This document shows, piece after piece, positions 36,250 to 49,725 of a stretch of DNA of 50,023 nt. The stretch is from NCBI GenBank assembly GCA_003553485.1, contig PWEJ01000031.1, positions 1-50,023 on the forward strand. Reading direction: 5' to 3'. The DNA comes from Halanaerobiaceae bacterium (lineage in GTDB: Bacteria; Bacillota; Halanaerobiia; Halanaerobiales; Halarsenatibacteraceae). A model generated the notes under the pieces. The model saw only the letters and a program-made list of their open reading frames with translations, searched no databases and was not told where the DNA came from. Numbering within the stretch: the stretch's first letter is position 1; each line of letters begins with the position of its first letter. The position numbers and the translations under genes were made by a program.

Positions 36250-36321
36250 AAACTAATAAAGGAATTGTTACTCAAAGTTTTTTTAAGATTATCGAAAACT
36301 AAATAATTTATTAATATTGCT

Positions 36322-36433
36322 GCTAACGGGGATTGGTGAAATTCCATACCGGTGGTTAAAGTCCACAAGCCTGGTGTCAGGTTGATTTGGTGCAATTCCA
36401 AAACCGACAGTTAAAGTCTGGATGGTAGTTGGC
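36322..36433 (+). promoter_or_regulatory. FMN riboswitch (RFN element)
   Basis: Conserved blocks are in order: GGGGATTGGTGAAATTCC, ACCGGTGGTTAAAGTCCAC, AGCCTGGTGTCAGGTTGATTT, GGTGCAATTCC, AAACCGACAGTTAAAGTC and TGGATGG. The closing P1 stem pairs GCTAAC (36322-36327) with GTTGGC (36428-36433). It lies directly before a terminator and the rib genes, so FMN binding should lower expression of ribD-ribE-ribBA-ribH and probably thiN. Confidence 0.93.
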
Positions 36434-36446
36434 CTGTTCCATTTTA

Positions 36447-42065: not shown

Positions 42066-42593
42066 TTACCTTGGGTCGACGAGATAATTCTCGATAAGGT
42101 AATAAGCCAAAAGAGCTCCGACATAACCACCTATAAATGATATGATAGTCATGAGGAAAAAAGGAATAATTAAATCGGTGCTTTCAAAACCGTAGCCTCC
42201 TGCTAGATAGTATGTTAATAAAAGAGAATTTAAAGTGCCGAATAAGCTAAAGGAGCCGGTGACTATTCTAAGCTGCCAGCTTTTATAATCTTTCAAGACT
42301 AACCAGCTTAGTAATTCAGTTAAAAGACCGGCAGAAATTATAGCAACGCCCATGAGTAATGATATTAGGGACATTATTCCAGCTAAAACAAAAGTCACTG
42401 CAAAGATAACGCCTTTTCTTTTAATTTTATAAAGAGGAAAGTAAAGCATAAAACTTGAAAAAACAGTAACTCCAACAAATTTTGAACCAGGAAAAGGCAG
42501 AAGATTAGCTGTTAAATAAAAAAACCAGCCTAAGATAAAAGTTAAAGCAACTGTTATGGCTATTACAGTCATATCCTTGATTTTAAATTTCAT
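42066..42593 (-). CDS. Multi-pass membrane protein, ECF transporter S-component-like
   Basis: The protein is 175 aa with five or six hydrophobic helices and short basic loops. The N-terminus MKFKIKDMTVIAITVALTF and the size resemble ECF-type vitamin transporter S components, but no substrate motif is recognised. The start has GGGAGG about 8 bp upstream on this strand. No ECF energising genes are nearby, so it would need shared A/T modules. It is divergent from katG across a 249-bp promoter region. It could instead be an unrelated small integral membrane protein. Confidence 0.5.
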   Translation of the reverse strand: MKFKIKDMTVIAITVALTFILGWFFYLTANLLPFPGSKFVGVTVFSSFMLYFPLYKIKRKGVIFAVTFVLAGIMSLISLLMGVAIISAGLLTELLSWLVLKDYKSWQLRIVTGSFSLFGTLNSLLLTYYLAGGYGFESTDLIIPFFLMTIISFIGGYVGALLAYYLIENYLVDPR

Positions 42594-45026: not shown

Positions 45027-45094
45027 ACTTTTATTGGAGATAAATATTAATTAGCTGATAATTGAGAACTAGAAAAACAAAACTAAATAGAAGG

Positions 45095-45313
45095 CAATCA
45101 GGTGCCCCCGGTTACGGCCGGGGGAGAATAGGGAATCAGGTGCAAAACCTGAACGGGCCCGCCACTGTAACCAGCTCTGTCTGGATTATTTAAGCCACTT
45201 AAATACACAATATATTTAGGGAAGGCGAGTTAATATAGTTTATAGCTGGAAGTCAGGAGACCTGCCTGATTGTTTAACCTACAATTTCCCGTTGGCAGGA
45301 AAAAGTAGGTAAA
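45095..45313 (+). promoter_or_regulatory. Cobalamin riboswitch
   Basis: Conserved parts are GGTGCC at the start, AGGGAATCAGGTGCAAAACC, CGGGCCCGCCACTGTA, and the B12-box core AAGTCAGGAGACCTGCC. P1 pairs CAATCAGG (45095-45102) with CCTGATTG (45265-45272). A following hairpin (45273-45313: CCTAC/GTAGG plus TTTCC/GGAAA) has loop CGTTGGCA, whose TGGC can pair with GCCA at 45161-45164. This is the L5-L13 kissing contact typical of the class. It precedes a TVP38-family gene. Confidence 0.93.
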
Positions 45314-45396
45314 CCGATTAGATTTATTCCTGAAACAGGATTTTTCTTTAAAATTCTGGACTGGAATCTCAATTATTCTTAAGAGGTTTACTATTA

Positions 45397-45423
45397 CTCA
45401 ACCCTGTCTGGGTTGAGTTTTAG
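45397..45423 (+). terminator. Terminator of the cobalamin riboswitch leader
   Basis: CTCAACCC (45397-45404), loop TGTCT, and GGGTTGAG (45410-45417) form a perfect 8-bp stem followed by TTTTAG. It ends a few bases before the ribosome binding site of the next gene. A weaker hairpin TCCTG/CAGGA with a five-T tail at 45328-45345 may also take part. Confidence 0.8.
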
Positions 45424-45447
45424 TATTTAGGAGGACATTATATTACT

Positions 45448-46161
45448 ATGGAAAAATTAACCGGTATAGTTAAATCCAATAGCAAAAGTTTATCCAGAAT
45501 TCTTGTCTTTTTATTGTTAGCAGTTACTTCATATTTTATACTAACCGGCAGGGGTTTTGATTTAATAACTTTTCAAAATAATATCCAGCGTTTGCAGTAT
45601 TTCGGGCAAAATTATTTGCTTTTTACTATAATGATATATTTAATAATACGGTACATTTTTGCTGTTGTCTCAATTCCAGGAACTGGAGTATTGACGATAG
45701 TTGGTGGAGCTATATTTAATTTTTGGCTGGCTTTACTGCTGGTTTCACTGTCAGTGAGCCTCGGTGTGTTAACAGTTTTTTTGCTCAGCAGGCATGCCTT
45801 TAGAAATTTGATTAAAGAGAAATTATCACATCATTTTCAGGCAATGGAACAATTGCTGGAGAGATATGGACCATCGCTTTTATTTTTGTTGAGAATTTGC
45901 GAATTATTTCCTTCTTTTGTTATCAATTCTTTTTTTGCTCTAACCCCAATTAAAACCTTTACTTATTTCTGGATTAGTTTTATAGGACATTTACCTGGTA
46001 TTATTGTCTTTGTAAATGCCGGTAGTCGCATAAATGAAATTGAGCAAGTAGGTGACCTACTGCAGCCCTCTATATTTTTATCCTTATCTGCCTTAGCTTT
46101 ACTCCCTCTATTGACCAAAGTTATTTACAATAAAATTTTATCCCGGCCAATAAAAATTTAG
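45448..46161 (+). CDS. TVP38/TMEM64 (SNARE-associated/DedA-like) membrane protein
   Basis: The protein is 237 aa with about five or six membrane segments. The VTT/SNARE-associated domain covers about residues 70-200: a SIPGTGVLTIVGGAIF re-entrant segment, a LERYGPSLLFLLRICELFP stretch, and FFALTPIKTF with FIGHLPGI after it. Related proteins move lipids or small metabolites across membranes; the substrate here is unknown. It follows a complete cobalamin riboswitch and terminator, so cobalamin should repress it. The AGGAGGA site lies 12-13 bp before ATG 45448, a slightly long spacing. No cobalamin synthesis or BtuCD genes are adjacent. Confidence 0.82.
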   Translation: MEKLTGIVKSNSKSLSRILVFLLLAVTSYFILTGRGFDLITFQNNIQRLQYFGQNYLLFTIMIYLIIRYIFAVVSIPGTGVLTIVGGAIFNFWLALLLVSLSVSLGVLTVFLLSRHAFRNLIKEKLSHHFQAMEQLLERYGPSLLFLLRICELFPSFVINSFFALTPIKTFTYFWISFIGHLPGIIVFVNAGSRINEIEQVGDLLQPSIFLSLSALALLPLLTKVIYNKILSRPIKI

Positions 46162-46289: not shown

Positions 46290-47474
46290 GTGAAAAAATA
46301 TCAAGACTTTGCCACTCGGGCAATTCACAGTGATGAAGGACATAAGAATGAACTGGGGGCATTAAGGACACCTATTTACCAGAGTTCTACTTTTGTTTTC
46401 GATAATGTACAGCAGGGAGCTAACAGATTTGCTGGAGAAGAAGAGGGCTATATTTATACCAGATTGGGGAACCCTACTCAGGCTGATTTAGAAAAACAGA
46501 TAGCCGACTTAGAAGGAGGGGAAGCAGCAATAGCTACAGCTTCAGGCATGGCAGCGACTTCAGCAGCAGTCCTGCAGTTTTTAAGTGCTGGAGACCACTT
46601 AATTGCCTCAGACACTCTTTATGGCTGCACTCATTCCTTTTTTGAAGAGATGCTTCCACGCTGGAACATAGAAGTTAGTTTTGTTGATATGACTGACTTG
46701 AACAATGTAAGAAAAGCTGCTCAGAATAGTACTAAAGTAATATTTGCTGAAACACCGGCTAATCCTACCCTGGATTTGGTTGATATTGCTGAGCTTGCTA
46801 AAATATCTGATGATATATCCAGTAGATTAATCATAGATAATACTTTTATGACTCCTTATCTCCAACGCCCCCTGGAAATGGGAGCTGATATAGTCATCCA
46901 CTCAGCAACTAAATATATTGGTGGTCATGGTGATACTATAGCTGGATTGATAATTGGTTCAGAAGAAGATATTATTGAAATCAGGGAGTCCACTATTAAA
47001 GATATCGGTGGTATTATAGCTCCTTTTAACGCCTTTTTACTGTTAAGAGGAATCAAAACACTCTGTATTCGAATGGATCGCATCTGTAAGAACACTCGTA
47101 AGGTTGCAGAATATTTGAATGCTCATCCTCGAGTAATAGAAGTTTATTACCCGGGTCTTACCAGTCATCCTCAACATGAGTTAGCCAAAAGGCAGATGGA
47201 GGATTTTGGTGGTATTATTGCCTTTGAATTGGAAGGAGGTTTTACAGCCGGTAGAAATTTAATGAATGAGGTTGAACTTTGCGTTTTAGCTGTAAGTTTA
47301 GGTGATGTCGATACTCTAATTCAACATCCTGCTTCCATGACTCATTATGTTGTGCCGGAAGAAGAGAGATTAGAAGCTGGAATAACTGATAGTTTGGTCA
47401 GAATATCGGTGGGTTTAGAATCTGTTGATGATATTATTGCTGATCTTGATCAGGCTTTAGAAGCCTGTCATTAA
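46290..47474 (+). CDS. megL: Methionine gamma-lyase (Cys/Met metabolism PLP enzyme)
   Basis: It cleaves methionine to methanethiol, ammonia and 2-oxobutyrate. Fold type I features are YTRLGNPT (56-63), YGCTH with Tyr111 and Cys113, DNTFMTPY, and SATKYIGGHGD with PLP Lys208. Cys113 matches the active-site Cys that marks methionine gamma-lyases over cystathionine lyases. Length is 394 aa. GTG 46290 follows GGGGGGAG. It has its own promoter candidate, so it is probably not controlled by the upstream riboswitch. A cystathionine gamma-lyase role is the main alternative. Confidence 0.85.
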   Translation: MKKYQDFATRAIHSDEGHKNELGALRTPIYQSSTFVFDNVQQGANRFAGEEEGYIYTRLGNPTQADLEKQIADLEGGEAAIATASGMAATSAAVLQFLSAGDHLIASDTLYGCTHSFFEEMLPRWNIEVSFVDMTDLNNVRKAAQNSTKVIFAETPANPTLDLVDIAELAKISDDISSRLIIDNTFMTPYLQRPLEMGADIVIHSATKYIGGHGDTIAGLIIGSEEDIIEIRESTIKDIGGIIAPFNAFLLLRGIKTLCIRMDRICKNTRKVAEYLNAHPRVIEVYYPGLTSHPQHELAKRQMEDFGGIIAFELEGGFTAGRNLMNEVELCVLAVSLGDVDTLIQHPASMTHYVVPEEERLEAGITDSLVRISVGLESVDDIIADLDQALEACH

Positions 47475-48493: not shown

Positions 48494-48543
48494 TTTTATG
48501 ATTATTATGTAAAATCATTTTTTAATAGGGCTAGGTGGTAGAT

Positions 48544-49725
48544 ATGTATGATGATACTAAAAATATATATATTTATACTCTGGGCAGGTTTTCTGTGAAA
48601 GACGGAAATAGCGAACTTATCTCAACTCAACAGAGATCTAGCAAGAGATGGCTTCTTTTTCAGCTTCTTTTTACCTATAGAAATGATAGTATTCCCGTGG
48701 AGAAGATATATGACTATGTTGAACTAAATGAAAGTGTTAATCCGCCAGAAGCTTTAAAGATTTTAGTATATTATCTAAGGCAAAACTTAAATAACACCAA
48801 TCCTGATAAGAACGTTATACCAGGAAAGTTTGTTATCTGTGAGAAGGGCCAGTATTATTTTAATATTGAGTCAGAGTATTGGTTTGATGGGGATGAGTTT
48901 GAGCTTTTGTTTAATAAAGCAAACTCAGTGATTAATTCTAACCCTGATAATGCTCTGCGACTTTTTAAAAAGGCCCTTAACTTTTATCAGGGAGAGTATC
49001 TTATGGAGGTTGGAGCTAAAGCCTGGGTATTACCCACCAGGAATTACTATCGAAGAATGTATTTAACAGCCATAATAAAAACCTGTAAATTACTTGTGGC
49101 CAGGGATGATTATCAATCTGCCATAGAATTATGTATGGATGGCTTAAAAACTAATCCCTTTGAAGAAAATTTACATGAGATAATTATTAATTCTTTCCTT
49201 AAAAGCAACCAGACGAATCTGGCCAGAATTCACTGTGAAGATATTGTTTCACTTTATAAAGAAAATGATCTTCATCTACCAACTAAGTTACAAAAATTAT
49301 ATACTATGTTATGCAGTAAAAAGACTGGCTTAAACCCAATAATTGAGTTGACTAAAATTCCTTTTATGTCAGAGGTTGAAGGCGCATTAGTATGTAATAT
49401 TGATATTTTTAAATTCATCTATAAATTTGAAAAAGCCAAAAAAGAAAGAAAGAGGGGAGTTCCATTTTTAGTATATTTTAAATTACCAGCTAGAATTTTA
49501 ACGCAGGATAATATTGAAATGCAAATTCATGAACTAGAAAATATTTTTAAAGCTAAATTGAGAAAGAGTGATCTTTTTTGTCCCTGGAATAAATTTGATT
49601 ATGTTTTGTTATTAAATAGCGAAAATCATAATTCAGTAGAAATTGTCATTGAAAGATTAAAAAAATCTCTTGCAAAAGAGCTTGATATTTCTCAGGAAGA
49701 TATTGAGATTAGGATTGCTGAATAA
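48544..49725 (+). CDS. SARP/BTAD-type transcriptional regulator with GGDEF-like C-terminus
   Basis: An OmpR-type winged helix occupies about residues 5-100 (YIYTLGRFSVKDG, and a LVYYLRQNLN recognition helix). A bacterial transcriptional activator (BTAD) tetratricopeptide-like domain lies at about 105-250 (ALRLFKKALNFYQGEYL, ELCMDGLKTNPFEE). The last 110 residues look like a degenerate nucleotide-cyclase/GGDEF fold: LRKSDLFCPWNKFDYVLLL sits where LRxxDxxxRxGGDEFxVLL would be, then VIERLKKSL. The catalytic GGDEF is lost. Length is 393 aa from ATG 48544, which has GGTGG 5 bp upstream; GTG 48535 is an alternative. Target genes are unknown. Confidence 0.78.
   Translation: MYDDTKNIYIYTLGRFSVKDGNSELISTQQRSSKRWLLFQLLFTYRNDSIPVEKIYDYVELNESVNPPEALKILVYYLRQNLNNTNPDKNVIPGKFVICEKGQYYFNIESEYWFDGDEFELLFNKANSVINSNPDNALRLFKKALNFYQGEYLMEVGAKAWVLPTRNYYRRMYLTAIIKTCKLLVARDDYQSAIELCMDGLKTNPFEENLHEIIINSFLKSNQTNLARIHCEDIVSLYKENDLHLPTKLQKLYTMLCSKKTGLNPIIELTKIPFMSEVEGALVCNIDIFKFIYKFEKAKKERKRGVPFLVYFKLPARILTQDNIEMQIHELENIFKAKLRKSDLFCPWNKFDYVLLLNSENHNSVEIVIERLKKSLAKELDISQEDIEIRIAE

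Follow-up and report, generated by a model that had tools for sequence, protein, structure and literature searches.

A VTT/TVP38 Membrane Protein behind a Cobalamin Riboswitch, Probably a Helper of Cobalamin Synthesis and Possibly a Cobalt Importer

Proteins of the VTT/DedA/TVP38 family are found in all domains of life, most of the bacterial branches having no known substrate, and VTT proteins other than the one considered here have been investigated for lipid scrambling or for the flipping of carrier lipids. The family is described as having two re-entrant hairpins, with functionally essential residues of YqjA located on the two re-entrant loops, and its members have been argued to be secondary transporters, possibly proton-coupled (PMC7818093). 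Predicted B12-regulated cobalt transporters, CbtAB, CbtC-CbtG and CbtX, are listed in PMC2667541, and in the accessible text of a survey of cobalamin regulons in 255 genomes (PMC3766115) no VTT protein is mentioned. The cobalamin riboswitch, the VTT family and B12-regulated transporters of cobalt are thus each already known; a search of the open-licence literature, supplementary tables aside, found no link between VTT/DedA/TVP38 proteins and cobalamin, its riboswitches or cobalt. Here we describe such an association in a stretch of 50,023 nucleotides (the window; GenBank assembly GCA_003553485.1, contig PWEJ01000031.1, positions 1 to 50,023 of the forward strand) from a Halanaerobiaceae bacterium. 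The evidence tying this VTT subfamily to B12 synthesis is strong, comprising the riboswitch, conservation across a clade, operon position, a gene fusion and a change at the hinge of the protein, which is probably a dedicated helper of the pathway.

The RF00174 covariance model matches the + strand of the window at 45083-45283 over its complete length (model positions 1-189) with a score of 114.5 bits (E 4.6e-28), against a gathering threshold of 31.5. An earlier note, made from the sequence alone, had described a complete aptamer with P1, a B12 box and a 3' hairpin able to kiss L5, and the covariance search that it proposed confirms the complete aptamer, moving its start from 45095 to 45083. 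P1 and the B12 box, AAGTCAGGAGACCTGCCTG (about 45250-45268), were read directly from the sequence, as was a P13-type hairpin (45273-45313) with arms TTTAACCTAC (45273-45283) and GTAGGTAAA (45305-45313). The loop of this hairpin, CGTTGGCA (45290-45297), is a candidate for contact with L5 (TGCAAAA, about 45141-45147), the TGC of which can pair with the GCA of L13. Further along the same strand are two terminator-like hairpins, TCCTGAAACAGGA followed by TTTTTCTTT (45328-45340) and ACTCAACCC-TGTCT-GGGTTGAGT followed by TTTAG (45396-45418). The pattern of the 8-bp terminator previously claimed ahead of the gene is present in the second of these, with 9 pairs, but its T tract is weak (TTTTAGTATTT) and that of the first hairpin is better. 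Because three terminator-like sites were found where 1.0 +/- 1.1 are expected, the window by itself argues only weakly for a terminator, and folding of the leader identified no antiterminator.

A ribosome-binding site read from the sequence, AGGAGGA (45430-45436, + strand), precedes the gene, which occupies 45448-46161 on the + strand and encodes a membrane protein of 237 residues. The product matches VTT_dom (PF09335) with 67.5 bits (gathering threshold 33.9), the only domain found in it; CbiM, CbiQ and CbiO domains are absent and an NCBIfam search of the protein matched no family. Upstream lies KatG and downstream, on the same strand, a methionine gamma-lyase beginning at 46290. Since the stretch from the VTT stop codon (46161) to the lyase yielded no terminator, the gene is perhaps not strictly alone on its transcript, read-through being possible, so that its earlier description as a lone gene holds in one relative (G004, see below) and possibly not in the window. 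Elsewhere in the window a complete FMN riboswitch (36318-36437, + strand, 98.6 bits) precedes riboflavin-synthesis-like genes, an ordinary arrangement; a hydrophobic protein of 175 residues with no Pfam or NCBIfam match (42066-42593, - strand) may, as judged by eye, be an ECF S component; and a regulator of 396 residues with a BTAD domain and a weak Trans_reg_C match (48535-49725, + strand) stands alone at the window's end.

Relatives were searched with the window VTT protein (genomes are labelled G followed by a number, the window genome being G000) and the results split sharply between a few strong orthologues and generic VTT proteins, the latter about 20-30% identical. The orthologues are those of G004 (59% identity, same family), G046 (54%) and G016 (44%), with further ones in G063 and G109 from another class of the phylum. 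G046, the sole return from a scan of named genomes, is Fuchsiella alkaliacetigena; G109 probably represents Natranaerobius thermophilus, to which G063 would be related. Plasmid VTT proteins were generic, with <40% identity among the matches listed. An RF00174 element is found on the same strand about 155 nt upstream of the VTT gene in G004 and G046 and just upstream of it in G063 and G109. Five of the six clade members, in four different gene neighbourhoods, therefore carry the riboswitch, as compared to 0/41 of the other VTT genes checked (Fisher p about 4e-6 for 5/6 vs 0/40 others, a guide only since related genomes are not fully independent). The functional link between riboswitch and VTT gene that had been proposed from the window is confirmed and extended by these relatives, the orthologues bearing the element rather than lacking it throughout. 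No RF00174 match, relaxed thresholds included, was obtained upstream of the sixth member, in G016; that gene (L039:8308-9030, + strand) ends near a contig edge and has a c-di-GMP-I riboswitch downstream.

Comparison of the five leaders strengthens the case for a terminator in the window because hairpins with T residues are similarly placed in all four of the riboswitch-bearing relatives, such a site lying between aptamer and start codon in 5/5 riboswitch-VTT leaders (window, G004, G046, G063 and G109). The P13 hairpin with a GGCA loop recurs in G004 and G046. By eye, and not by a statistical test, L13 contains GGCA where L5 has TGC or TGT (window, G004, G046) and TTCG where L5 has TGA (G063, G109), as would be expected of a kissing contact. 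The VTT-linked aptamers do not group together and tend to be similar to other aptamers of the host genome, that of the G046 VTT gene being 90% identical to another G046 aptamer. Because of this tendency a single travelling riboswitch-VTT cassette is unsupported and separate recruitment in several lineages is suggested; on the simplest reading of the sequences B12 control of VTT genes arose lineage by lineage, and gene conversion could also have produced the host-wise grouping.

In a tree of 36 VTT proteins the six orthologues are monophyletic with support of 100/99 and a long stem. Residue 152 is Glu in 6/6 clade members and Pro in 35/35 of the others aligned, within a hinge motif R-x-x-E-x-x-P-S-F-x-I-N-S that replaces the R-x-x-P-x-x-P-x-N-x-Q-N-Y of other VTT proteins, and P77 and P155 are invariant in 41 sequences. 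A structure model from six sequences was unusable (pLDDT 46) and we have used an AlphaFold2 model based on 41 sequences (pLDDT 84.4), in which helices break at 75-78 and 152-155. Model and alignment together show in the window protein the two re-entrant hairpins with conserved prolines that characterize PF09335, and the break at 152-155 matches the described re-entrant hairpin, so that E152 is predicted to lie at the second re-entrant hinge. Assignment of the window protein to the B12-linked clade is based on the PF09335 match, the tree, E152 and the model. The clade is remodelled at both hinges, where the fold has its functional core and where the clade has changed most. Among the residues invariant in the clade there is no His, Cys, Met or Asp, which makes a classic transition-metal site less likely. 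Because Foldseek with the window VTT model returned nothing at E <= 0.001, and VIA-align against solved structures gave at most Z 5.0 with no convincing relative, no fold relative is claimed.

The gene order in G063 and G109 connects the clade with corrin-ring synthesis. In both, the VTT gene is first in an anaerobic corrin-ring operon, riboswitch-VTT-cbiD-cbiET-cbiL.... In G109 further corrin-ring genes follow, after which come a CobU-like protein and a small membrane protein resembling an ECF S component. The VTT and cbiD genes of G109 share about 34 bases, and in G063, so far the one draft genome with this fusion, a single 622-aa frame without a stop contains both VTT (residues 75-191) and CbiD (residues 247-503), as delimited with Pfam. 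In G147, from a sister family, the slot between riboswitch and cbiD is occupied by CbiM, CbiQ and CbiO, the last of these being fused to CbiD. A census of CbiD proteins with unusually long frames, covering about 180 CbiD-bearing genomes of the phylum, yielded as N-terminal fusion partners a CbiO-type ABC ATPase in eight cases, CobU in one and VTT in one; in two long-frame proteins CbiE follows CbiD. Since CbiMQO holds the slot in G147 and the partners of CbiD are mostly of CbiO type, VTT occupies the usual place of a cobalt transporter. The fusion of a CbiO-type ATPase to CbiD, seen in eight genomes (L114:9012-11048, L119, L122, L123, L124, L126, L127 and L128), seems to be recurrent in this phylum. 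The Fuchsiella VTT gene lies inside a B12 island with ThiC-family genes, CobT, CbiM genes, an ECF S component and several more riboswitches. Directly behind it is a broken FecCD/BtuC gene (L038:7719-8310, - strand), perhaps all that is left of an operon for B12 uptake from which VTT acquired its riboswitch, and at L038:2954-3991 (- strand) two cobalamin riboswitches flank a gene of 109 codons and precede an SBP_bac_5 ABC transporter of the peptide/nickel type.

The 2.84 Mb draft genome that contains the window has six RF00174 elements, the other five of which lead to CbiX, to a BtuF-like protein with CobU, to BtuFCD, to CobA with cbi genes and to CobT. None of these five is followed by a cobalt importer, and among the annotated genes no membrane protein other than VTT and BtuFCD is under riboswitch control. 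The two CbiQ-like matches in the genome belong to other ECF systems and a search for a NicO protein found none. There is an orphan CbiM (L116:1156-2341, + strand) with neither CbiQ nor CbiO adjoining and no riboswitch; the next gene encodes a small exported protein to which no family could be assigned. CbiD is present in 5/5 riboswitch-VTT genomes (the chance of that alone is about 0.012), which places the anaerobic corrin pathway in all of them, and G016, with a VTT gene and no riboswitch, has neither CbiD nor CbiM. The clade is absent from 22/27 CbiD-bearing genomes examined and is therefore an accessory rather than a core component of B12 synthesis. CbiM too occurs in 5/5 riboswitch-VTT genomes, under B12-riboswitch control in at least G004, G046 and G109, and VTT is thus not the sole cobalt route there; the idea that VTT substitutes for CbiMQO genome-wide was rejected as stated.

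We tentatively read the locus, at a little under an even chance, as encoding a VTT transporter dedicated to cobalamin synthesis, repressed by its riboswitch and most likely importing cobalt. By analogy with known cobalamin riboswitches of biosynthetic operons, plentiful B12 would cause the riboswitch to terminate transcription and turn VTT off; when B12 is low the terminator would not form and the protein would be made. Transport activity is suggested by the VTT/DedA literature, and the slot common to VTT and CbiMQO points to cobalt, which the protein would then import to supply corrin-ring synthesis, either together with the ECF transporter CbiMQO or instead of it. It is because of this shared slot, and because the window genome has no B12-regulated cobalt importer, that we prefer cobalt, the most likely substrate that we can infer, over a less likely corrinoid precursor. 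Supply of cobalt or a precursor for de novo synthesis is the stronger reading as compared to uptake of finished corrinoids. Of the functions suggested earlier, a B12-replaceable one is disfavoured because VTT heads the corrin-ring operon in two genomes and is fused to CbiD in one, the product being a VTT membrane protein encoded with cbi genes in those two genomes and not a B12-independent isozyme; lipid-linked handling finds no specific support. Against cobalt it must be said that the BtuC remnant behind the G046 gene points equally to corrinoid uptake, and that a fusion may owe its partner to the order of the genes and not to a chemistry in common. That the E152-marked subfamily as a whole constitutes a new, single-protein class of cobalt importers, recruited separately to cobalamin riboswitches, is a broader proposition that we hold to be possible and rather doubtful.

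The main rival, unlikely in our judgement, is that what VTT moves through the membrane for cobalamin synthesis is a precursor, corrinoid or tetrapyrrole (cobinamide, cobyrate, benzimidazole or alpha-ribazole). It draws on the same riboswitch and operon evidence and on the Fuchsiella island, where VTT adjoins the BtuC remnant among ThiC-like genes, CobT and an ECF S component. However, the slot in G063 and G109 is that of the cobalt transporter, and the operon there already has ECF S-like and AIRS-like kinase proteins, probably for alpha-ribazole salvage, counterparts of which were identified in Fuchsiella. The window genome, moreover, has a separate BtuFCD, and G016, which in lacking CbiD would depend on salvage, has a VTT gene with no riboswitch. 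The fusion in G063 and the overlap in G109 could also be understood if VTT carried nothing and served as a membrane anchor or scaffold for corrin enzymes, CbiD first, but VTT lies far from cbiD and is regulated alone in G000, G004 and G046, and remodelling has been greatest at the re-entrant hinges, where the functional core lies; we regard a scaffold as very unlikely.

Membership in PF09335 raises the prospect that the protein keeps the general VTT/DedA task, be it movement of lipids or carrier lipids or tolerance of alkaline pH, with its B12 regulation incidental. Of the hosts, at least Fuchsiella is an alkaliphile of soda lakes (PMC9387241) and another is probably Natranaerobius, N. thermophilus having a growth optimum of about pH 9.5 (PMC2764116). 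A riboswitch in four neighbourhoods and membership in a cbi operon would be hard to reconcile with an incidental role, as would a distinct clade with both hinges remodelled, and this explanation is quite unlikely; that alkaline brine underlies the patchy distribution of the clade is speculation. Finally, a stray riboswitch beside an unrelated gene might have been suspected from the window, where VTT stands alone between KatG and methionine gamma-lyase, neighbours that are not B12 genes. Chance placement has been rejected on the evidence of the relatives (5/6 orthologues with a riboswitch vs 0/41 other VTT genes) and retains next to no probability.

A branch of the VTT family tied by regulation, operon position and fusion to one pathway comes with a short, testable list of substrates. 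If our preferred reading is correct, anaerobic cobalamin synthesis gains a component, probably one of use in cobalt-poor settings such as alkaline brines, and, were cobalt import to be true, a defined small substrate could be given to one branch of a family best known for members that move lipids.

It is instructive to set the locus beside the described systems that it most resembles. Like other RF00174 riboswitches it has the aptamer, the B12 box, the P13 hairpin and a downstream terminator-like hairpin before the gene, differing in that the regulated gene here encodes a VTT protein. Within PF09335 the protein is placed by its VTT domain (67.5 bits) and by the two re-entrant hinges of the model, and is set apart by belonging to a separate clade with its own hinge motif. 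A fusion of TVP38 to an FAD-dependent oxidoreductase, known from the annotation of plasmid records, likewise joins an N-terminal VTT domain to a soluble enzyme, but the VTT part is generic (about 30-35% identity) and the enzyme a different one. CbtAB-CbtX, compared here by description only, are also membrane proteins for which riboswitch and neighbourhood are the sole grounds of assignment to cobalt, none being described as a VTT protein in the available part of PMC2667541. With CbiMNQO, the B12-regulated ECF transporter for cobalt, there is no sequence relation, VTT being a single protein of 237 residues without an ATPase that coexists with CbiM; the likeness is one of position, in the riboswitch-cbiD slot of G147, and of the ATPase-CbiD fusion that parallels the VTT-CbiD fusion of G063.
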